A stretch of 19,184 nucleotides of DNA from Deltaproteobacteria bacterium (GTDB lineage Bacteria > Myxococcota > UBA796 > SXON01): contig CANKNP010000051.1 in the NCBI GenBank assembly GCA_947483545.1, positions 1 through 19,184 of the forward strand. Direction: 5' to 3'. The position numbers and the translations under genes are program-made. Under the pieces are notes generated by a model. It had not been told where the DNA came from and ran no database searches. It saw nothing but the letters and a program-made list of their open reading frames with translations. This document shows positions 1,280 to 18,992 of the stretch, piece after piece (within the stretch, counting starts at the first letter, position 1; each line of letters starts with the position of its first letter).

Positions 1280-2416
1280 TTAGCCCACAAGCCATCGGTG
1301 CAACCCCAAGAGCCCCTCCAGATCGTGGACCTCCTGAGCCTGGCGATCCACTTCGACCAGCGGCACACCGCCAGCTTCGGCGACAAGCCGGCGGACCCAC
1401 TGGGTCTCGAGCCCCGCCAGATCGCGAAGTCGGCGATGCGCGGCTCCGAGTCGGGCGAGCAGCTGCGGCGCGACAAGCGGGTCCAGCTCCCGCGCTCGCC
1501 GGCCAAGGAGCGCGTCCACATCTGGACTGATCAGCTTCGCCCGGTGGAGTTGGTTGACGACCACGGCTCCGACCCGCAGCTTACGGGTTCGCAGCTCATG
1601 CAGGAAAAAGGTCGCGACGTCTACGGAGGGCTCGTTCGGAGCGCTCACCACGACAAATGTCGTGCGGGCATCCCCGAAGATGCGGCTGACCGCCTCATGG
1701 CGCTCGCGCATGCCGTCGTAGAGGTCCCGAAAGAGCGTGAAGAACAGGGAGAGCTCGCTCAAGAACTCCCGTCCGAAGATGTGCCCGAGGAGCCGGTAGA
1801 CCACCGCAGACGTGCCGAGCATCAGCCTTTTCCCGATGGCGCGCTCCTCCTCCGCGGGCGTGAGGAACCACTTCATGACCTGGCGGTCCAGGAACCGGGA
1901 CAGCCGGCCGGGTGCCTCCAGGAAGTCCAGGGCATTCTTCACGGGCGGCGTGTCGAGCACGATGAGGTCGTAGCGGCCGGAGCCGTAGACATCGTAGAGC
2001 CGCTCGGTCGCCATGTACTCCTGGCTCCCGGAGAAGCTCCCCGCGATGGAGCGGTAGATCCGGTTCTGGAAGATCGCGTCGCGGGTCGCTGTGTCCTTCG
2101 AGACCTTCGCGATCACGTCATCGAGCGTACTCTTTGGGTCGAGCATCATCGCCCACAGCTCTCCACCTGCGGGCGCCCGCGATCCGAGCAGAGCCTCCAG
2201 CGGGATGCGCACCTCGGTGTTCCCGATTTCAGAGAGCCCGAGCGCGTTCGCCAGTCTGCGGGCGGGATCGATGGTCAGGACCAGGACGCGCCGCCCGGAC
2301 AACGCCGCCCACAAGGCCAGCGACGCCGCCGTCGTCGTCTTGCCAACCCCACCGGAGCCGACGCAGACAATCAGCCGCTGGGTGCGTGCGAGCTCGGCGA
2401 CGGCAGATGGGCTCAC
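1280..2416 (-). CDS. ArsA/Get3-family ATPase lacking the signature lysine, 378 aa
   Basis: This is a SIMIBI-class P-loop ATPase of the ArsA/Get3 (PF02374) family. The Walker A is GSGGVGKTT at residues 20-28. Ser21 replaces the 'signature' lysine of the deviant Walker A (KGGxGKT), which normally completes the partner's active site across the dimer. Switch-like motifs are visible: TIDPARRLANALGL (switch I region) and LDTPPVKNALDFLEAP (switch II region). Start is GTG at 2416. It overlaps the stop of the preceding ATPase by 4 nt (GTGA), implying translational coupling and probably a heteromeric partnership. Actinobacteria encode a similar neighbouring pair (Rv3679/Rv3680 in Mycobacterium tuberculosis), as I recall it. 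No arsB, arsC, arsD or arsR is nearby and I see no paired-cysteine metalloid site, so arsenite export is unlikely. A role in handling membrane proteins or another client is inferred only from Get3 relatedness. Confidence 0.87.
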   Translation of the reverse strand: MSPSAVAELARTQRLIVCVGSGGVGKTTTAASLALWAALSGRRVLVLTIDPARRLANALGLSEIGNTEVRIPLEALLGSRAPAGGELWAMMLDPKSTLDDVIAKVSKDTATRDAIFQNRIYRSIAGSFSGSQEYMATERLYDVYGSGRYDLIVLDTPPVKNALDFLEAPGRLSRFLDRQVMKWFLTPAEEERAIGKRLMLGTSAVVYRLLGHIFGREFLSELSLFFTLFRDLYDGMRERHEAVSRIFGDARTTFVVVSAPNEPSVDVATFFLHELRTRKLRVGAVVVNQLHRAKLISPDVDALLGRRARELDPLVAPQLLARLGAAHRRLRDLAGLETQWVRRLVAEAGGVPLVEVDRQAQEVHDLEGLLGLHRWLVG

Positions 2417-3396
2417 CCGCCCACCAAGTCAACCCGGACCTTGCTCTGCCGGGCGAGCGCCGCGGTGAGCTGCGTCACGACCTTGGCAGCCCCTTCGCCC
2501 CGGGCCAGCACCGGGAGAACGACGACCGGCCCGACCTCCCGAAGGCGGAGCAGCGCCTCCGTCGTCGCGAGCTCAAGCCGCTCCTCCCATAGGCCCGCCT
2601 CGACCAGCTCTGCCGCGTCTACGCCCACATCTCCCTGCTCGCCGAGCGCGTGAAGCAGCCCGCGCTCGGCCACCGAGAAGCTCGCCGGCGTTGCGCGGTT
2701 GAGCAGGATCAGCGGTTGGGCCAGCGCGGGGATCTCCGCCCGGATGCGCTCGCGGGTCTCCACGGTCTCGTTCACGACCATCTCCTCAGGCAAGCCGACC
2801 AGCACCAGGTTCGTGTCCGGCCTCGCCAGAAGGGCGTCGATCTCCTCGGCGCAGCGCCGGATGGGTCCGGCGTCGAACAGGCGACGGGAAGTTCCGACCA
2901 CCGAGAGCATGCCCGCGGCGTTCCCTGACGCGGGCATGTCCACCACGACCAGATCGTAGGACTCAGCGAGCCGGACCACCCGGTGCAGCAACATCAGGTC
3001 CCGCGCGCCCGGCGTGGCCTCCAAAAAGATGCTGATCATGCGATTTTTCATGATCATGCGGACGATCCGGCCGGCCCCGACCAGATCCGCGAGCCAGTCG
3101 TCGAGCGCAGGCATCCACTCGACGTTGCAGATGGAGAGCTTGGGGCCGACCTCGACGGGCTGGTACGCCGGGATGCGTTGAAAAATCGCCGTCAGGGAAG
3201 GCCGCTGGCTGTCCAGCTCGCACAACACGGTTCGGCGGCCCTGGGAGGCCGCGAGCTTGGCCACCGCGGCGGCGAGCGTGGTTTTGCCGGTGCCGCCCTT
3301 TCCCGTCAGGAAGAGCACCCGCGAACGAAAGAGCACGCTGGAATCGGCGACGCCGATCCCGGCGCCCTCCTTCGAATCGCGCTCAGCCGCTCCCAT
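2413..3396 (-). CDS. ArsA/Get3-family ATPase with canonical deviant Walker A, 327 aa
   Basis: ParA/ArsA-like ATPase. Near the N-terminus is GKGGTGKTT, carrying the signature lysine that its downstream neighbour lacks. A Walker B/switch II-like stretch reads DLVVVDMPASGNAAG, and a switch-I-like stretch follows as LCELDSQRP. I start at the ATG at 3396-3394. A TTG directly before it (3399) would add one residue and cannot be excluded. The start lies 3 bp after the TAG of the ketoacyl synthase, and the TGA overlaps the GTG of the next ATPase, so all three genes look translationally linked. The two ATPases are similar in the N-terminal nucleotide-binding part but differ in their C-terminal halves. 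Together they suggest one hydrolytically competent subunit plus one lysine-deficient partner. The client is unknown. The family assignment is solid; the cellular role is not. Confidence 0.87.
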   Translation of the reverse strand: MGAAERDSKEGAGIGVADSSVLFRSRVLFLTGKGGTGKTTLAAAVAKLAASQGRRTVLCELDSQRPSLTAIFQRIPAYQPVEVGPKLSICNVEWMPALDDWLADLVGAGRIVRMIMKNRMISIFLEATPGARDLMLLHRVVRLAESYDLVVVDMPASGNAAGMLSVVGTSRRLFDAGPIRRCAEEIDALLARPDTNLVLVGLPEEMVVNETVETRERIRAEIPALAQPLILLNRATPASFSVAERGLLHALGEQGDVGVDAAELVEAGLWEERLELATTEALLRLREVGPVVVLPVLARGEGAAKVVTQLTAALARQSKVRVDLVGG

Positions 3397-3399
3397 CAA

Positions 3400-4392
3400 C
3401 TACCAGCGCACCAGCGAAGCGCCCCAGGTCAAGCCCGCGCCGAAGCCTGCGAGCAGCACCAATTGGCCCTTCTTGACGCGGCCATCCTGCACCGCCTCAT
3501 GCAGCGCGATGGGAATGCTCGCCGCCGTCGTATTGCCATACTTCTGGATGTTGTTGACCACCTTCTCGGCGGGGAAGCCGAGCTGTCGGGCGACCATCTC
3601 GTTGATGCGCAGGTTCGCCTGGTGCGGCACGAGCACGTCCACATCCGAGAGCGTGTACCCGTTTCGCTTCAAGATGCTGTGGATCACCTCCGGGAGCCGC
3701 TCGACTGCGTGCTTGAACACGCTCCGACCGTCCATCTTCGGCCAATGGCGGCCCTGCTCCATCATCTCGACCGTCAGGCGCGGGTTGAGCCGGCTCGCGG
3801 GGCACTCGACCATCAGGATCTCGGCGAAGCGGCCGTCCGCATGCAGCTCCGTGTCCAGCACGCGCGACTCGCCCTCGGTCGGACCGATCACCGCAGCACC
3901 TGCCCCATCCCCGAACAGCACCGCGACGTCCCGGCCCCGGGTCGTGATGTCGAGCCCGGTGGAGTGAACCTCGCTGCCGACGAGCAAAACCCGCTTTGCA
4001 AGCCCGGAGCGGAGGTAGGCGTCCGCGGTCTTGAGCCCGTAGAGGAACCCGGTACACTGGTTGCGGATGTCCATCGCTGCGACACCCGGGATGCCCAGCC
4101 TCGCCTGGAGAAGGCAGGCGCTCCCTGGAAAGTTCAGATCCGGCGACAGGGTGGCGAACAAGATCAGGTCGATGTCGGCGGGCGTGAGTTCAGCCTCGGC
4201 GAGGGCGTCGCGGCAGGCGTGCTCGGCAAGCTCGCTCGCGCCAACATCCCCTTCGATCCAATGCCGTTCCTTGATGCCCGTGCGCTGCGTGATCCACTCG
4301 TCGGTGGTCTCCATGAGCACGGACAGCTCGGCGTTGGTGACGATGCGCGGCGGGACGAAGTGTCCCATGCCTAGGATGGTGCTGCCGGTCAT
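3400..4392 (-). CDS. fabH: Beta-ketoacyl-ACP synthase III (FabH family), 330 aa
   Basis: FabH-type enzymes condense an acyl-CoA primer with malonyl-ACP to start fatty-acid synthesis. The complete thiolase-fold catalytic triad is visible: Cys113 in RNQCTGFLYGL, His257 in VPHQANLRINEM, and Asn287 in YGNTTAASIP. The N-terminal TTDEWITQRTGIKERH and the GDGAGAAV stretch are also typical. Length (330 aa) matches the family. I chose the ATG at 4392, which has GGAG 7-8 nt upstream and starts with the usual MTGSTILGMGHFVPP. The open frame reaches further up, into gyrB sequence, but that part has no FabH similarity. The gene starts 22 bp after gyrB and ends 3 bp before an ArsA-like ATPase, so it probably shares their transcript. 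A FabH paralogue serving a special lipid or polyketide primer cannot be ruled out from sequence alone. Confidence 0.9.
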   Translation of the reverse strand: MTGSTILGMGHFVPPRIVTNAELSVLMETTDEWITQRTGIKERHWIEGDVGASELAEHACRDALAEAELTPADIDLILFATLSPDLNFPGSACLLQARLGIPGVAAMDIRNQCTGFLYGLKTADAYLRSGLAKRVLLVGSEVHSTGLDITTRGRDVAVLFGDGAGAAVIGPTEGESRVLDTELHADGRFAEILMVECPASRLNPRLTVEMMEQGRHWPKMDGRSVFKHAVERLPEVIHSILKRNGYTLSDVDVLVPHQANLRINEMVARQLGFPAEKVVNNIQKYGNTTAASIPIALHEAVQDGRVKKGQLVLLAGFGAGLTWGASLVRW

Positions 4393-4414
4393 GGATGCTC
4401 TCCGAGGATCGGGT

Positions 4415-6895
<2,481 letters not shown>

Positions 6896-6964
6896 CTAAA
6901 AACTCCGCTCGGACAGACCGGTTGCCGTAACCCGCCGACCCCGTTCTGTAAGCACCAGACGGCG

Positions 6965-8044
6965 TCAGACCAGCCGGCCGGCCTCAACGCGGACCACGCG
7001 AACGTCCGCCGCGGGCGGCACGACCCGGAGGTCCGTCGTGCTGACGAAGACCTGCGCGCCAAGCTCGTTCAGACGACGGACGAACGCAGCGGTGCGCCCG
7101 GCGTCCAGCTCACTGCCAAGGTCATCGACGAGGAAGATCGGGACCTCCCCTGCCTCGCCCGCAGCCAGGATCTCCGCCAGCTTCCAGGCAAGCACGACCG
7201 AGCGGGCCTGTCCGCCGGAAGCGCAGGTGCGGGCGGGCCGCCCCGCGACGTGAAAGACGAGGTCGTCCCGCTGACTTCCGCCCAGCACCCGCCGTCGCTC
7301 CCGCTCGACCGAGCGCTGCGCCGCCACCGCCAACCCGTACCGCCGGTGGAGCTCCGCGTCGTCGCCCTCGCCGAGCTGGGAGTGCAGGGTCACATCGGCC
7401 TCCTCGCCCCCGCCGATCTCCCGGTACATGCGCTGAAAGCCGGCGCGAATGCGCTCAGTCGTCGCTCGCCGCATCCGCGTGACCCGGACGGCCAGGGGCA
7501 CAAGCTGAGCGTCCAGCACGTCGAGCTCAGCATCCGTCGCCCGACCGCTCCGGTACAAGGCCGCTTTCTGGTCCAGCACCCGGCGGTGATCTCGGGCAAT
7601 CGACAAATACCCTGGGTCCAAGGTCAAAATCGTCCGATCGAGAAGCGCCCGCCTCGCGACGGGCTCCTCACGGACCACGGCGACGTCAGCAGGGGAAAAC
7701 CAGCTCGCCCGCAACGAAGTCAGCCACGCCACCGCATCCAGGCTGCGCTCCTCTCGGACGAGCTTGCGGCCCCCGTCCCCCGTCGTGAAGCTGAACGAGC
7801 GGGTCTGCTCCTCGGACCGCACCACCGCTCGCAGATCGAGCCCAGCGCGGCTCCCGACCGGCACGGCCTCGGCCAGACGGGGCGTGCGAAAGCTGCGGAG
7901 GCTCCCAAGCACGCTGAGCGCCTCCAACGCGTTGCTTTTGCCCTGCCCATTCGTGCCGTGGAACACCACCATGGGCGCGTCCACGTCGATCACCTCGCTC
8001 GCGAGATTCCGAAAAGAGCGAGGTTGGAACCTTAGGACGCGCAT
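6965..8044 (-). CDS. recF: RecF recombination mediator, 359 aa
   Basis: RecF is an SMC/ABC-like ATPase that helps RecO and RecR load RecA on gapped DNA. Residues 1-12 (MRVLRFQPRSFR) match the family N-terminus. The Walker A is GTNGQGKS at 30-37, followed by NALEAL. Near the C-terminus are the ABC signature region ASGGQARSVVLAWKLAE and the Walker B IFLVDDLGSELD. I start at the ATG at 8044, 16 bp after the dnaN stop. The frame extends 26 codons further up into dnaN sequence, but those residues are unlike RecF. The resulting length is the usual one. The signature reads SGGQ where many RecF proteins have SxGQ, which is within family variation. It sits between dnaN and gyrB and is very likely cotranscribed with them. 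Confidence 0.96.
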   Translation of the reverse strand: MRVLRFQPRSFRNLASEVIDVDAPMVVFHGTNGQGKSNALEALSVLGSLRSFRTPRLAEAVPVGSRAGLDLRAVVRSEEQTRSFSFTTGDGGRKLVREERSLDAVAWLTSLRASWFSPADVAVVREEPVARRALLDRTILTLDPGYLSIARDHRRVLDQKAALYRSGRATDAELDVLDAQLVPLAVRVTRMRRATTERIRAGFQRMYREIGGGEEADVTLHSQLGEGDDAELHRRYGLAVAAQRSVERERRRVLGGSQRDDLVFHVAGRPARTCASGGQARSVVLAWKLAEILAAGEAGEVPIFLVDDLGSELDAGRTAAFVRRLNELGAQVFVSTTDLRVVPPAADVRVVRVEAGRLV

Positions 8045-8060
8045 CGCCGCAAGGGCACCT

Positions 8061-9179
8061 TCAGTCCAGCCGTACGGGCATGACCACCGAGAGCGCGTCC
8101 GGCGACGCGGGGTCGTGAACAAGGCAGGGCGAAAGCGTATCCCCGAGGTCCAGCACCACCAGGTTGCCGCTCAAAGACGCGATCACCTCCTGCAAGAACC
8201 GGGCGTTGAACCCCATGGTGATCGGCTCCCCTTGCAGGTCTACGCTCACCTCCTCCTTGGATTCGCCCGCATCGGTCTTGCGCGAGGTCATGGTCAGCAG
8301 GCCATCCGTGAAGGCGAACCGCACCGACCGGGTGCTGTCCAGCGCGAAAATCAGCACGCGCTTGAGCGCGTCGGAGAACTCCTCGCGGTTCAACACCGCT
8401 TTGCGCTTGAACGTGCTCGGGAGGACCTGCCGGTAGTCTGGAAAGTCCGCCTCAAGCAGGCGCATGTGAATCGTGCAGTCGCCGAGGCGGACGACCGCCG
8501 CACGCTCTCCGAACGCGATCTCGACGTCGGTCTTCACACCGTCCAAGAGCCGCCGCACCTCGGCGAGGCCCTTCCGGGGCACCAACGCCTTGCGAGCGAT
8601 CGACAACTCCCCCGCGAACGGGGCCTGGCTCCACGAGAGTCGGTTGCCGTCGGTCGCGACCACACGGAGGCGCTGCCCACCATCCGCGCCGGCCACCTGC
8701 TCAAAGTGGGCGCCGTTGAGTCCGTACCGGTTGTCGTCGCCGGCGACGGAGAACACCGTCTGGTCAAGGATCCGCGCGAGGGCGTCCGGCGGGATCATCA
8801 ATGAGCGGCTCTGGTCCAGCGGCGGGGTGACGGGAAAGTCGCCAGCGGGCTGACCGACCAGGCGAAAGTTGGACTTTCCAGCGGTCACTTCCAGCCGCTG
8901 TTGATCCCCGAGCACACAGGTGACCGTGTCGCCGCTCAAGGACTTCACGGTGTTCAAGAGGTAGCTGGCGTCCACCGCAATCGCGCCTGGAACGCGCACA
9001 GTTGCTGGAACGTGGCCGAACACGGTGAGCGCCTTGTCCGTGCCCGTGTACCGGAGCACCTGACCCTCGGCCTGCAACAGCACCGAGCTCAAGATCGAGC
9101 CCTGGCTCTTCCGGTCGACGAAGCCGGACACGCGGGTCAGCGCGTGGAGGAGGACGTCGCGGCTGATGAAGAAGTCCAT
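8061..9179 (-). CDS. dnaN: DNA polymerase III beta sliding clamp, 372 aa
   Basis: DnaN forms the ring-shaped processivity clamp for the replicative polymerase and a docking platform for other DNA enzymes. Clamp features include the N-terminal MDFFISRDVLLHALTRVSG, the central DDNRYGLNG and VVATDGNRLSW segments, and the C-terminal end ALSVVMPVRLD. That end matches the conserved MPxRL tail that lines the partner-binding pocket. Length fits three clamp domains. The start ATG at 9179 has GGAG with a 7 nt spacer. It is separated from dnaA by 275 bp that contain DnaA-box-like sites, and it precedes recF by 16 bp. Confidence 0.98.
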   Translation of the reverse strand: MDFFISRDVLLHALTRVSGFVDRKSQGSILSSVLLQAEGQVLRYTGTDKALTVFGHVPATVRVPGAIAVDASYLLNTVKSLSGDTVTCVLGDQQRLEVTAGKSNFRLVGQPAGDFPVTPPLDQSRSLMIPPDALARILDQTVFSVAGDDNRYGLNGAHFEQVAGADGGQRLRVVATDGNRLSWSQAPFAGELSIARKALVPRKGLAEVRRLLDGVKTDVEIAFGERAAVVRLGDCTIHMRLLEADFPDYRQVLPSTFKRKAVLNREEFSDALKRVLIFALDSTRSVRFAFTDGLLTMTSRKTDAGESKEEVSVDLQGEPITMGFNARFLQEVIASLSGNLVVLDLGDTLSPCLVHDPASPDALSVVMPVRLD

Positions 9180-9199
9180 CGGGAGGCTCCAGAGTAGAG

Positions 9200-9219
9200 A
9201 GATAGATAATTAGATAGAT
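9200..9219. repeat. AT-rich AGATAGAT direct repeat (possible unwinding element)
   Basis: Two copies of AGATAGAT are separated by four AT bases, in an otherwise GC-rich region. The tract lies only about 20 bp upstream of the dnaN start codon. It may be the DNA-unwinding element of the candidate origin, or simply an unstructured leader that aids dnaN translation. TAG trinucleotides recur, which recalls DnaA-trio elements, but the spacing is four rather than three bases. Confidence 0.35.
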
Positions 9220-9337
9220 GTTGCTGATGCTGAGGGGGTGTCGAGAAGGGGACAACCCTGGAAGTTCAGGTATAAGGAATGCTATTTCGAGAAGCCGTTG
9301 GGGAGAACCGGGGCACGAAATCCGCAGAACGGGCGTC

Positions 9338-9346
9338 TTGTCCACA
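9338..9346 (+). promoter_or_regulatory. Strong DnaA-box match TTGTCCACA
   Basis: The nonamer is one base from TTATCCACA and identical to the preferred high-GC form. It lies 108 bp from the end of dnaA in the dnaA-dnaN gap, with three weaker TTGTCC sites around it. It would bind DnaA for initiation or regulation. The match is clear, although this genome's DnaA has an altered DNA-binding signature and its true consensus is untested. Confidence 0.55.
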
Positions 9347-9454
9347 TGGCCGCGCGGGGGTGGCGGGCGCCTATGGGTAACCGGCTGATCGGCCCACAAG
9401 TTGTCCCGGGGGTCCCCCCAAGCGCTCCCCAGCTTGTCCCCAGGGCGCCTTTGG

Positions 9455-10783
9455 TCACGCGACAGGCCCTTTGCAGAGCCGCTCAAGCTGCTCGATCTCG
9501 GCGCGGATGTTCGGATCGCGATCCGCGCTCTCCTCGACCCGATTGCAGGCGTACTGAACCGTCGAGTTGTCACGGCCGAAGGCGCGCCCGATCTCGGGGA
9601 AGGACAGGCCGGTGATCTTCCGGGTCAGGTACATCGCCATTTGTCGAGGCCAGGCGATGTTCGCCGGGCGGCGGTTGCCGAGGATGTCGCTCACGCGGAT
9701 GTGGTAGTGGTCCGCCACCCGCGTGACGATCCGCTCGGGGGTGGGCGGGGGGGCTGCGGGCCGGATCACGTCCTGCATCCGCTGGTTGATGAATTCCTGG
9801 GTGATTGGCGTCCGATAAAATGCGTGCAACGCGGAGAGTCGCTTCAGGACGCCCTCCAGCTCTCGCACGTTGGACCGGACCCGCTCGGCGATGGTGTACT
9901 GCACGTCGCTTGGGATCACAAGGCGCATCGCCTCGGCCTTCTTCGCGAGGATCGCCATCATCGTCTCGACGTCCGGCGGCTGCACGTCGGCCAGCAACCC
10001 CTGCTCAAAGCGGGTGCGCAGGCGGGGTGCGAGCTTGCCCAGGTTTCGAGGGGGCTCATCGGCGGTGATCACCACCTGCTTGCCGTTCCCCTTCATGGCC
10101 TCGAAGATGTGAAAGAGCTCCTCCTCCGTGCGTTCGCGCCCTTGCACGAACTGGATGTCGTCCAGGATGAGCACATCCACGTCCGTTCGGAACCTCTCCT
10201 TGAACTCGAGCGTGGCTTTGTTCTGGATCGCCCGGACCATTTGCTCGAAGAACTGCTGCCCGGTGTAGTAGCAGACGTTCAGGTGCGGGTGTGCCTGCTC
10301 GACCCGGTTCCCGATGGCGTGAGAGAGGTGGGTTTTTCCAAGGCCGGTACATCCGTAGACGAAGAGCGGGTTGTAGACGACCCCGGGGGTCTCGGAGACG
10401 GCGATGGCCGCGGCGTGGGCGAACTCATTGCAGCGGCCCACCACGAAGTTCTCGAAGATCATCGACCGATCGACGGTGGGGATCGGGCGTCGCGCCACGC
10501 TCGGAGATGCGCTCGCCGTGCGGGGCGAGCCTTCGCCGAGGAACTCCACGGTCACGGTGCGCCCGAACACCTCGCTGCATGCACCGACGATCTCGGCGTG
10601 CAGGTTCTCGCTGATCCAGTCATGGTGCCATCGGGAGCTGGTGCGGAACACCACGTGGCGGGCGTTCTGGAGGTCCGGAAACACGGCCTCGGCCACGAGG
10701 CCCGGGCGCACCCACGCCTCCATCTCCCCATCGCCGATCTTGGCTTCGAGGGTGGTGCAGAAGCGGGTCCAGAAGGCATTCAT
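9455..10783 (-). CDS. dnaA: Chromosomal replication initiator DnaA, 442 aa
   Basis: DnaA binds DnaA boxes at oriC, oligomerises with ATP and opens the duplex. Domain I covers about residues 1-75, with a short linker to about 105. The AAA+ domain has Walker A GCTGLGKT at 144-151, Walker B LILDDI at 205-210, the arginine-finger region RLRTRF at 254-259, and sensor II NVRELEGVLKRL with Arg307. Domain IV runs from about 345, with the signature helix FPEIGRAFGRDNSTVQYA at 395-412. Two oddities stand out. Walker A has Cys-Thr where Gly-Val or similar is common. The signature reads FG-RDNSTV where most DnaA proteins have FGGRDHTTV: one Gly is missing, and His and Thr become Asn and Ser. Length and all other motifs are normal, so the protein is probably functional. 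The start ATG at 10783 lacks an obvious Shine-Dalgarno. Confidence 0.98.
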   Translation of the reverse strand: MNAFWTRFCTTLEAKIGDGEMEAWVRPGLVAEAVFPDLQNARHVVFRTSSRWHHDWISENLHAEIVGACSEVFGRTVTVEFLGEGSPRTASASPSVARRPIPTVDRSMIFENFVVGRCNEFAHAAAIAVSETPGVVYNPLFVYGCTGLGKTHLSHAIGNRVEQAHPHLNVCYYTGQQFFEQMVRAIQNKATLEFKERFRTDVDVLILDDIQFVQGRERTEEELFHIFEAMKGNGKQVVITADEPPRNLGKLAPRLRTRFEQGLLADVQPPDVETMMAILAKKAEAMRLVIPSDVQYTIAERVRSNVRELEGVLKRLSALHAFYRTPITQEFINQRMQDVIRPAAPPPTPERIVTRVADHYHIRVSDILGNRRPANIAWPRQMAMYLTRKITGLSFPEIGRAFGRDNSTVQYACNRVEESADRDPNIRAEIEQLERLCKGPVA

Positions 10784-15730: not shown

Positions 15731-17326
15731 ATGAAGCGTCAGGCCCGAACCCCGTCTACCGCGGCCCCGACCACGAGCGCGGCGGCATCGAGCTCCGGAG
15801 GCTCCAGCCGGCAGAGCTTGTACGGCAACAGCTTCGTGCAACAGCAGATGGGCCCCGGCAGCGAGGATGGCCACAGCGAGGCGCCTGGCGACGTTGGCGG
15901 CCACAACCACGGCGAGGAGCGCACCACCCGGGACATGCCGTCCGCACGCTCGACCGGCCCGCTCGGCGCGCCCACCCGCGCGGACGTGGAGGCCGCCGAT
16001 GCCTTCGTTGCAGGCGGGGTCAAGGGCCCCCAGGCGATCGCCCCCGCGACGGGACTTGGCGGGTTTGACGCGACCTATGACCCGGACGGCGGCGACGGCT
16101 CCTTGGACATCGCCGTCCGCGGCGGCGTGAACTTCGTGGACCCGATCCGGGACGACGGTGGCGGTCGCGCGGTGGCGGTAGACCCCGCCTACGCGAAGAT
16201 GGCGACGGCGATCAACGCGCTGCCCACCGAAGAGCGCGTCGGGATCCTGCCCGAATTCACCTGGTCTTCGGATCCCGCCGACCGTCAAGCCTGGATCGAC
16301 CGGCTGAAGACCTCGGTCCAGGACACCTGGAGCGGCAAGCACGAATTCCACGTTCACAAGCCCGGCTGGCAGTGGGTCGGCGCGGATGTGGAGGTTCACG
16401 TGAACGTCGCCGCGCGGACCGAGCGCAACGCCGACGATCACGTCAGCATCGACGCCGTGAAGACCCCGGACTGGGAGAACCTGTACAGCTACGGGCTCGC
16501 TTCCTCCGTCACGTCCAACGTCGCGACGGACCCGAACGACTCGACGATGCGCATCGCCTCGAGCGACGTGGACCCGCGCCCGAACGACATGCTCGACATC
16601 ACCAACGTGCTGTTCGCGACCGGAAGCGCGAGCCTGTCCACCGAGGAGCGCGCCAAGGTCCGCCGCTGGGCCCGGACCTACGCGGGCGATCCCAACAGCG
16701 CGGCCAGCCACGCGATCCGCGCTCAGGTCGAGGGGCACACCGACTCGGTCGGGGATTCCGAGCGGAACATGGAGCTCTCCCAGCGGCGCATGAACACGGT
16801 CATCGAGCTGCTCCGCGCGAACGGCTTCACCGACATCGAAGGGCGGCTCGACCAGGCGGCCAAGGGCGAGACCCAGATGCGCGAGGACGACCAGGAGCAT
16901 CGCTGGTCGCGGCGGGTGATGATCAAGATCGATCATCCCGACGGCGCACAGGGGCTGGCGGGCCATGAGTTCGGGCACGTGTTCGGCCTCGGCGACCAGT
17001 ACGCGACGAGCGACAAGGCGGGCCACGCGACTTCAGTCCGCGGCACGGGCGCCCAGACCGGCGAGGCCGCCGCGCATGACGGGCTCGCCCGAAACATGCT
17101 GGACGAAGAGGGGAACGCGATGGCGGGCGCTATCTACGAGAACAATGACGGCATCATGTCCGGCGGCAACCACGTCTACGCCGAGCAGTACTCGACCTTC
17201 CACGCAGCACTTCAGACATTGAGCGGCGTGAGCGAGTGGGCGCTTGGCGGTACCCAGGCAAGGCCCGACCCCGCGACGCTCGACGCCGCCGTCGCCGCGA
17301 CGCCGACGACCACACCCACGCTTTGA
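15731..17326 (+). CDS. OmpA-like domain / HExxHxxGxxD metalloprotease fusion, 531 aa
   Basis: I start at the ATG at 15731, which has GAGGT just upstream. The N-terminus (1 to about 75) has no signal peptide. It is Ser/Thr/Ala-rich, then SLYGNSFVQQQMG, then a His/Glu/Asp-rich stretch. A middle region (about 80-285) with PEFTWSSD, DTWSGKHEFHVHKPGW and ADVEVHVNV is unrecognised. An OmpA-C-like domain spans about 287-401. It includes EGHTDSVGDSERNMELSQRR with Asp338 and Arg353, the 15-residue spacing of the peptidoglycan-binding pair. Next is the zinc motif HEFGHVFGLGD (His412, Glu413, His416, Asp422) and a Met-turn-like GIMSGG (Met476), as in metzincins with Asp as third ligand. The likely role is a cell-wall-targeted or exported protease, perhaps an effector of a contractile injection system. 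That role is inference. It overlaps the next gene by 4 nt (TTGA). Confidence 0.82.
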   Translation: MKRQARTPSTAAPTTSAAASSSGGSSRQSLYGNSFVQQQMGPGSEDGHSEAPGDVGGHNHGEERTTRDMPSARSTGPLGAPTRADVEAADAFVAGGVKGPQAIAPATGLGGFDATYDPDGGDGSLDIAVRGGVNFVDPIRDDGGGRAVAVDPAYAKMATAINALPTEERVGILPEFTWSSDPADRQAWIDRLKTSVQDTWSGKHEFHVHKPGWQWVGADVEVHVNVAARTERNADDHVSIDAVKTPDWENLYSYGLASSVTSNVATDPNDSTMRIASSDVDPRPNDMLDITNVLFATGSASLSTEERAKVRRWARTYAGDPNSAASHAIRAQVEGHTDSVGDSERNMELSQRRMNTVIELLRANGFTDIEGRLDQAAKGETQMREDDQEHRWSRRVMIKIDHPDGAQGLAGHEFGHVFGLGDQYATSDKAGHATSVRGTGAQTGEAAAHDGLARNMLDEEGNAMAGAIYENNDGIMSGGNHVYAEQYSTFHAALQTLSGVSEWALGGTQARPDPATLDAAVAATPTTTPTL

Positions 17327-18021
17327 TCCTGCTGTTGGCGGCGATCTCCCTGGACAGCGCCGCCGCGGAGGGGTCCGTGCTCGTCGAGATGGTGCAGTCC
17401 GGCGAGCCGGCGACGGGTTTTCAGATCCGCGACGATGGGCGATGGTTGGAGCTGGACGGCGCCTGGTCCGTGCGCTTCACGCTCGACGCGGGCGCGATGG
17501 ACAAGGCTCGCTCGGCGGTGGCGGCGATCGAGGACGTGACGGTGCCTGGAGGCGTGGTCAGCGATGCGACCGGGACCACGACGTGGCGGCTCGGGGGAGG
17601 AGCGACCGAGCGGGTGATCGTCGTGCCCGAGGGCGTGTCGGTGCCCACACTCTCGACGCTCTACCAGACGCTTCAGGGCCTACATAGGAGCGTGGCGACG
17701 TCTACGTGGGTGGTCGGGGGGGTGCCGCATGAGGTCAACTGCAACGCGGCCGCTGTCCCCGAGCTTGCCGCGTTGATGCGGCTTTTTGGGTCAGGGCCGG
17801 CGAATTCCGAGGGGGGTGTGGATGGGGAGACGGTGCTGGAGGTGACCTGGCGCGTGGACGGGAACACGGCCGGGAGGAGCGTTGTTTTGGCGGATGGGCG
17901 GGTGGGGGCGACGGTGGGGGGGGAGCTGGTGCTGAGGCGGGTGCTGACGGGGGACACCGTGAGCGCGCTTCAAGCGGGGTTGGCGGGGGTGAACTGGGCC
18001 GTGGTTTGTGGGCCATGGTAG
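17323..18021 (+). CDS. Exported two-repeat protein of unknown function, 232 aa
   Basis: I do not recognise a family. From the TTG at 17323, which overlaps the metalloprotease stop by 4 nt (TTGA), the first residues form a short hydrophobic stretch ILLLAAISLDSAAA with a plausible cleavage before EGS. It lacks a basic N-terminus. In-frame starts further up, within the protease gene, would add an Arg-rich leader, so the start is uncertain. The protein looks like two related halves. VLVEMVQSGEPATGFQIRDD...WLELDG is echoed by VLEVTWRVDGNTAGRSVVLADG, and each half then has a short helix (AMDKARSAVAAIEDV / TVSALQAGLAGVNW). Two cysteines are present (VNCN and VVCGP). A stop at 18019-18021 overlaps the next start. 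Context suggests a secreted partner of the protease. Confidence 0.6.
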   Translation: MILLLAAISLDSAAAEGSVLVEMVQSGEPATGFQIRDDGRWLELDGAWSVRFTLDAGAMDKARSAVAAIEDVTVPGGVVSDATGTTTWRLGGGATERVIVVPEGVSVPTLSTLYQTLQGLHRSVATSTWVVGGVPHEVNCNAAAVPELAALMRLFGSGPANSEGGVDGETVLEVTWRVDGNTAGRSVVLADGRVGATVGGELVLRRVLTGDTVSALQAGLAGVNWAVVCGPW

Positions 18022-18732
18022 GGCTGGCCGCGGTTCGTGTGCTTTCCCTGTGCACAGTTCTCCTTTCCGGCTGTGCGCTGATCACCGATGGCGATCTTGC
18101 CGCGCGATTGGATCTCGATGGGGACGGCCTGCAGCGCCCTTTCGACTGCGACGACGATGACGCGGACGTGACCACCTCCACCTGGTACCTCGACGACGAC
18201 GGGGACGGCTACGGGGTCGAGGAAGCCTTCCTCCTCGCGTGCCTTCAGCCCACCGGGTACGCCCCCGAGGCCGGTGACTGCGACGACGGGGACGCGGACG
18301 GGGGTGGGCTTCACGGCGGTTTCCATCGCCGACCACGCGGCCTGCGGCGTGGGTCCGCGGGGGGAGCTGACCGGGTGGTACGGGGCCGAGGACGGCCCCT
18401 GGGTCGATATCGGGTTGATCGCGATCGAGGTAGATGCCTCCGATTACGAATGCTACGCGCTCACGTCGGAGGGCTACGTATTTCATGGGGATGCACTGAC
18501 GTACGATCCAAACGACCCGATTGTCTCGTTCACCGTGGGCCCGGAGCACGACTGTTTCCTTCGCGGGGATGGCTCGGCAACGTGCGGAGGTGCGAACGAC
18601 TACGGCGAGGGCGACGTTCCCGAGGGGGCGTTCCTCCAACTCAGCGCGGGGGACAAACACACTTGCGCGGTGACGACCGACGGGTTTCTGGCATGTTGGG
18701 GGCTTGAGCAGGCGGGGGTGCCGATCAATTGA
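18015..18732 (+). pseudogene. Lipoprotein with Asp-rich metal-binding motif and RCC1-like repeats, apparently frameshifted
   Basis: The first 95 codons from the ATG at 18015 encode a lipoprotein signal peptide with lipobox LSGC (Cys20). An Asp-rich 'putative metal-binding' repeat of myxobacterial type follows: DLDGDGLQRPFDCDDDDADV, WYLDDDGDGYG and GDCDDGDAD. In that frame the sequence then turns into Arg/Gly-rich nonsense to 18707. One base on, the frame from about 18301 gives four RCC1-like repeats (FTAVSIADHAACGV, EVDASDYECYAL, FTVGPEHDCFLR, LSAGDKHTCAVTTDGFLACW), ending at TGA 18730. The junction falls in a run of five Gs (18300-18304). Removing one G would give a single 238 aa protein. 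It may be a true mutation, a slippage site or a sequencing error. The start overlaps the previous gene by 7 nt. Confidence 0.65.
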
Positions 18733-18917: not shown

Positions 18918-18992
18918 TGGTGGGCGCAGCAGGATTTGAACCTGCGACTCCTACCGTGTGAAGGTAGTACTCTTCCGCTGAGTTATGCGCCC
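18918..18992 (-). tRNA. tRNA-Val (anticodon CAC)
   Basis: All cloverleaf parts fold. The acceptor stem is 7 perfect pairs (GGGCGCA/TGCGCCC), the D stem ACTC/GAGT and the anticodon stem CTACC/GGTAG. The anticodon loop TTCACAC gives anticodon CAC. The T stem is GCAGG/CCTGC with loop TTCAAAT. The discriminator is A and CCA is encoded. It reads GTG valine codons, frequent in this GC-rich genome. It is flanked by a candidate promoter (19002-19029) and a terminator (18874-18909), so it is probably a single-gene unit. Confidence 0.97.

Follow-up and report, generated by a model that had tools for sequence, protein, structure and literature searches.

The gene at positions 15731 to 17326 on the forward strand of the window, by which we mean the whole stretch of 19,184 nucleotides analysed here, on balance probably encodes a metzincin-type protease with a nested OmpA-like domain that would be delivered by an extracellular contractile injection system (eCIS), would act in the cell envelope and would be accompanied by its own inhibitor. 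In the mechanism that we propose, the eCIS cargo would be a zinc metalloprotease with the OmpA-like domain placed between its N-terminal half and its catalytic helix, and a hydrophilic leader with a GN motif, which would replace the leader and DUF4157 module of its relatives, would serve loading. Injection would bring the protein into a competing bacterium, where the protease would act in the cell envelope and the OmpA part could keep it on the peptidoglycan, while the inhibitor encoded by the coupled downstream gene, exported or lipoprotein-like in most loci, would guard the producer and its kin. The features involved are the following.

15731 to 17326, forward strand: effector-like gene, 531 aa, with a leader, a metzincin half, an OmpA insert and an active-site half
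15731 to 15955, forward strand: leader (residues 1-75), hydrophilic, without signal peptide, taking the place of the relatives' DUF4157 module
15815 to 15853, forward strand: GN leader motif SLYGNSFVQQQMG (residues 29-41), read from the translation; a GN motif is enriched before DUF4157
15968 to 16585, forward strand: predicted N-terminal half of the metzincin-type domain (residues 80-285), contiguous with the HExxH part in the OmpA-less paralogues L025 and L026; from these and the structure model
16595 to 16930, forward strand: OmpA-like insert (residues 289-400, including D338 and R353), PF00691 match
16964 to 16996, forward strand: zinc motif HEFGHVFGLGD (residues 412-422), with H412, E413, H416, G419 and D422, and also the nearby Y424, identical in 28 of 28 aligned homologues
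17150 to 17167, forward strand: Met-turn-like GIMSGG (residues 474-479), with M476 kept in 26 of the 28 homologues
17323 to 17326, forward strand: TTGA shared by the start of the partner and the stop of the effector, read from the sequence
17323 to 18021, forward strand: partner gene, candidate immunity inhibitor, 232 aa from TTG 17323 (alternative start GTG 17236)

In the program translation of the window, the open reading frame contains all the motifs quoted in an earlier, sequence-only reading of this DNA (HEFGHVFGLGD, GIMSGG and the leader motif), and only OmpA exceeds a curated cut-off in a Pfam scan (PF00691, residues 294-388, E 2.6e-9). Profiles of known peptidases match below their cut-offs, namely Pfam Peptidase_M6 at residues 400-438 (E 0.00075) and the NCBIfam M6 domain (E 7.4e-6), and the same is true of all M6, M7, M10 and reprolysin matches in the family and of the match of one relative, L026, to matrixin (PF00413, profile positions 32-123, E 0.01). 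With the metzincins of families M6, M7 (snapalysin), M10 and M43 the family has in common the HExxHxxGxxD motif, the Met-turn and these sub-threshold matches, and it differs from them in carrying OmpA between two halves and in having no secretion signal. The snapalysin-like metzincin proposed from the sequence thus holds at the level of motif and sub-threshold profile (M6, M7, M10), with no match above cut-off, and the protein is very probably a metzincin-type protease, with activity predicted from its sequence. Its start is hydrophilic (GRAVY -0.94 over residues 1-50; charge +1 at residues 6-21), the best 15-residue hydrophobicity mean in the leader is 0.09 and, judged from hydropathy, there is no Sec- or Tat-like start, as had been noted before. 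Since no domain other than OmpA passes a curated cut-off, one could suppose an ordinary envelope protein of the OmpA family in which HExxH occurs by chance; the missing signal peptide, the invariant zinc motif, the Met-turn Met and the retention of the protease part in paralogues without OmpA make this already disfavoured view hardly credible. ARAGORN also places a tRNA-Ser of 74 bases antisense within the gene (16517-16590, reverse strand); the one tRNA that Rfam reports at gathering thresholds is at 18921-18992, so this call is probably spurious.

When 5.8 billion proteins were searched, six of the 7,996 scored candidates matched at E<=0.001, four of them full-length protein relatives (P0002-P0005, with identities of 64, 51, 51 and 29%); further matches from alignment-based searches were only partial, and none was found on the viral contigs searched. 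Scanning one genome per species over 84,980 species yielded at least 17 loci, among them at least 15 full-length members in 15 relative genomes, which are mostly MAGs and not independent of each other. Nine of these 15 members belong to Bacteroidota and two to Solirubrobacter, the other four coming from one MAG each of Deinococcales, Myxococcales and Oligoflexia and from an uncultured proteobacterium (L001, from which P0002 derives). Cultured strains are among the carriers, Solirubrobacter soli DSM 22325 with L003 and Portibacter lacus YM8-076 with L015; two loci in which only the OmpA or the HEFGH stretch matched (L016, L017) were excluded as members. Among the matches listed, the family is rare and patchily spread over distant groups. 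Three class samples were also searched, with only part of each genome's first-look candidates scored (e.g., four each in the class of genome G007), so that the counts are lower bounds: members occur in at least 1 of 295 genomes of G007's class (G007 itself), full-length members in at least 1 of 119 genomes of G003's class (G003 itself), and members in at least 8 of 71 genomes of G001's class, some of the eight matching only partly.

The position of the OmpA domain is best seen from two Solirubrobacter paralogues without it (L025 and L026, 50% identical), which in the alignment share with the family both the N-terminal region and the zinc and Met-turn region, and which have 4-5 residues in the OmpA columns as against 90-125 in the 26 other rows. 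Because these paralogues keep both flanks, we regard residues 80-285 as the protease's first half and OmpA as inserted into the metzincin domain immediately ahead of the active-site helix, with no direction, gain or loss, implied. The sequence-only reading was right to find OmpA and protease together; its placing of OmpA in front of the protease, and of residues 80-285 in a domain of their own, gives way to this arrangement, which it missed, as it did the coupled downstream gene. In a structure model of residues 80-531 from 19 rows (mean pLDDT 88.7, pTM 0.87), strands and a long helix precede the OmpA fold and the HExxH helix comes after it, which is the order of elements expected of a metzincin; an earlier prediction from 5 sequences had a mean pLDDT of 37 and was useless. 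OmpA-like and related peptidoglycan-binding domains fill the best 50 of 453 rows of the Foldseek PDB list and likewise the best 50 rows of the VIA list, and OmpA occupies all 4 rows at E<=0.001 of the viral fold list. Zincins are absent from those best 50 rows of either list, which proves nothing where OmpA fills them, and as the lists hold OmpA-like domains they do not confirm the zincin fold. By sequence, the PDB yielded OmpA or chance-like matches only, whether queried with the protein, its family, the partner or an OmpA-less paralogue.

In the window protein, the OmpA part agrees with both the fold and the family profile, and D338 and R353, with the spacing reported earlier, are what we take to be the Asp/Arg peptidoglycan-binding pair of OmpA-C. 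Both being present, the insert fits peptidoglycan docking in this protein. While R353 is found in 26 of 26 OmpA-bearing rows, D338 is found in only two (the window protein and L001; 23 rows have Ser and one Asn), and because 24 rows are without the Asp, docking may not be general in the family; by this scarcity and by its nesting in a protease, the domain differs from the peptidoglycan-binding domain of OmpA-C and Pal. It is conceivable that the protein is an eCIS cargo protease in which OmpA is not an anchor, rather a gate or substrate-binding module by the active site, with action in the bacterial cytosol or in eukaryotes also possible. The insert does adjoin the catalytic helix, most rows do lack the Asp, and the partners of L006, L007, L008, L013 and L026 have no export start by eye; the retention of both Asp and Arg in the window protein and L001 and the 12 of 17 partners that look exported by eye argue against it, and we consider this explanation unlikely. 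The chances of envelope action with OmpA anchoring, which we prefer, seem evenly balanced.

The eCIS_core domain (DUF4157) is a marker of eCIS cargo. It forms the N-terminus (PF13699) of 7 of the 19 members and is encoded somewhere in 12 of the 15 relative genomes, and Pvc16_N (eCIS terminator) and the gp19 tube are present in all 15. An eCIS gene lies on the member's own contig, within ~21 kb, in six of these genomes, being Pvc16_N for the members of G002, G007, G010, G013 and G015 and the tube for that of G009. Pfam recognises gp25, baseplate V, tube, sheath and Pvc16_N genes next to the G015 member; it also shows that the G002 member is immediately preceded by an AAA ATPase and a DUF4157 gene, and that in L007 and L013 the partner is immediately followed by an AAA ATPase. 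The background frequency of Pvc16_N is 32 of 295 genomes in G007's class, 7 of 119 in G003's class and 59 of 71 in G001's class, that of the nearest relative, where co-occurrence therefore says little. The window protein has no DUF4157 match in Pfam, and no eCIS gene was recognised within the 19 kb window (housekeeping genes by eye, Pfam on 5 ORFs); in the available text of the 2024 study, its authors regard the absence of DUF4157 from an eCIS toxin as uninformative (PMC11297309). As far as the available descriptions go, eCIS-associated toxins (EATs) with DUF4157 resemble the family in the N-terminal DUF4157 of the seven members, the eCIS genes of the relatives and the hydrophilic start without signal peptide, and the window protein differs from them in its short GN leader as the only such module, its nested OmpA, its metzincin and its conserved partner gene (PMC8213781; PMC11297309). 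The injected effector and the eCIS link suspected from the sequence are supported by the eCIS_core of the members, the eCIS genes of the relatives and the GN leader, and the window protein is highly likely to be an eCIS cargo, for which loading and injection would follow. Beside these, two single open frames of ~2,900 aa with two or three DUF4157 each, an odd tandem, were observed (G005:C6 3542-9241 and G015:C11 604280-623362), and one member alone of the 19 matches Annexin (L014:3588-5345, E 2.2e-5), by eye in its leader, in the place of DUF4157.

For the GN motif, which the sequence-only reading linked to DUF4157 proteins, 25 DUF4157 places were examined, 23 of the 55 found in the relative genomes and two from the sample of G003's class; all 14 Myxo/Actino-type places in relative genomes were used, and 9 of 41 in Bacteroidota/Deinococcota. 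A looser pattern, GNxx[VFLMIAQ] within 170 residues before DUF4157, picked after seeing examples, occurs in 11 of the 16 Myxo/Actino-type places, of which two (L023, L024) are family members themselves (shuffle mean 2.0; 0 of 2000 shuffles reach 11). No enrichment is seen in Bacteroidota/Deinococcota, where it occurs in 2 of 9 places and 890 of 2000 shuffles reach 2. The association is thus borne out for Myxo/Actino-type groups, where the motif is a leader of DUF4157 proteins, whereas in the Bacteroidota/Deinococcota places examined it does not exceed chance; in the window protein the motif stands without the domain. The G014 leader SSRQDRLGNSFLSEL closely resembles the window's SSRQSLYGNSFVQQQ, and a strict degenerate leader pattern searched in G001 matched only G001's own member. 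After the OmpA-less paralogue L025 (G003:C8), the next same-strand ORF has a LQRSAGNAAVARYV leader of its own, and GN-leader genes can therefore stand in tandem.

The window's partner gene has a hydrophobic start ending in SAAA, is recovered by a leave-one-out profile at E 7.2e-7 and shares 43% identity with the downstream gene of L001. Leave-one-out profiles pick every one of the 11 held-out downstream genes out of 1,490 ORFs (E 1e-22 to 0.0016). Across 26 loci the full profile has 17 matches at E<=1, in every case to the gene that immediately follows the effector; beyond the 11 seeds, L004, L041, L047 and L045 are clear and L026 (0.0077) and L024 (0.06) weak. No partner is found by profile in the nine other loci (L009-L012, L025, L042-L044, L046), and neighbours of L043 and L044 that by eye alone look like lipoprotein ORFs were left out of the count. 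Of 15 loci examined, six have the two genes coupled by an NTGA overlap (window, L001, L003, L004, L041, L045). By eye, a signal or lipoprotein start is present in the partners of the window, L001-L005, L014, L015, L024, L041, L045 and L047, although those of the window and L001 have no basic stretch when the overlap is taken as the start codon; the cytosolic look of the other five may indicate another site of action in those loci. Pfam offers no family for the partner (best DUF6438, E 0.0069, one member, below cut-off) and no emfourin match, at E<=10 in the 11 partners of A3 or in the others scanned. Partner matches occur in 5 of 71 genomes, four of the eight with an effector match (G001, G014, G020, G051) and one of the 63 without (G046); as those of G001 and G014:C182 are partly by construction, their sequences having fed the profile, the comparison without these two genomes is 2 of 6 versus 1 of 63 (P about 0.02, relatedness ignored). 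Orphan partners with exported-looking starts exist as two copies in G046 and one more in G014 (C668), and no HExxH ORF of at least 120 aa lies within 2.6-3.6 kb around them, where MAG gaps could hide an effector.

An effector without signal peptide, the eCIS context of its relatives and a mostly exported-looking partner together lead us to a protein that would be injected and act in the envelope, with the partner probably an inhibitor conferring immunity. A co-delivered helper, chaperone or activator might also be coupled to the effector and lack a known family, but the prevailing export or lipoprotein starts are ill-suited to a cytosolic loading chaperone and immunity better explains the orphan copies, so that such a role appears improbable. 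Contractile systems can also act on the producing cell, and the protease might serve the producer itself, in lysis, development or turnover of the envelope, and the partner might be its regulator: in the available accounts, the CIS of Streptomyces work in the development of the producing cell, and no eCIS cluster is visible around the effector gene in the window or, on the contigs seen, in 9 of 15 relatives. The patchy distribution across distant groups, the DUF4157 fused to seven members and the partner copies standing as orphans with no effector nearby render this very improbable.

An inhibitor acting as immunity protein would bring the pair close to the T6SS effector VgrG2b, a metallopeptidase toxic in the periplasm that, in the available text, is neutralised by the exported or lipoprotein immunity protein PA0261 (PMC6899460). 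Compared by description, the C-terminal domain of VgrG2b with PA0261 (Tpe-Tpi) likewise combines an injected zinc metallopeptidase active in the periplasm with a small downstream gene for an exported or lipoprotein immunity protein, injection, site of action and immunity being putative in our case, and differs in the T6SS, the thermolysin-like fold, the many orthologues named DUF4157 and, in the text available, no mention of an OmpA insert (PMC6899460). What is seen here of a Tpe-Tpi-like arrangement is a downstream gene that is coupled to the effector and has a putative export start, judged by eye, and the best reading of the pair is as an eCIS counterpart of VgrG2b-PA0261. According to the available part of the 2021 survey, most antibacterial EATs are without an adjacent immunity gene, which is called an intriguing mystery there (PMC8213781). 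Protealysin and emfourin, a metalloprotease and its inhibitor in one operon, described in the available text as a proposed competition pair, are similar in setting a metalloprotease beside an inhibitor gene, here a putative one, and differ in the protease family (M4) and in the partner, which has no emfourin match in Pfam (PMC9505478). OmpA is unmentioned in the main texts of the two EAT papers, whose supplements might list a member (PMC8213781; PMC11297309). Literature searches found no paper for DUF4157 together with OmpA; the listings for contractile injection or eCIS with OmpA and metalloprotease or toxin, and for metzincin with OmpA, held nothing apparent on this subject, and those for eCIS with metalloprotease, immunity protein and effector held nothing apparent on it apart from the general eCIS survey (PMC8213781).

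In the window itself, an origin-type cluster recognised by eye lies on the reverse strand at 1280-10783 (two ArsA-like ATPases, FabH, GyrB, RecF, DnaN and DnaA). The effector-partner pair is therefore near a probable oriC, with no mobile or eCIS island visible around it. Two ORFs that overlap and use different frames follow on the forward strand at 18006-18732, one at 18006-18707 with an Asp-rich repeat-like start and one at 18274-18732, by eye pieces of one surface protein, possibly split by a frameshift or an assembly error. Somewhat short of an even chance, and thus as a tentative proposal, we suggest a distinct class of eCIS cargo in at least four bacterial groups, in which an OmpA-split metzincin would dock on the victim's peptidoglycan beside its active site, a minimal GN leader would serve loading, and an undescribed family of exported metalloprotease inhibitors would confer immunity and persist also as orphans. 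With a conserved, coupled and mostly exported-looking partner at hand, one can test directly whether bacterial envelopes are targets of some eCIS and how the producers survive. The nested OmpA suggests a way for an injected protease to stay at the cell wall, the short GN leader may be a minimal loading tag, and the partner may represent a new inhibitor family.
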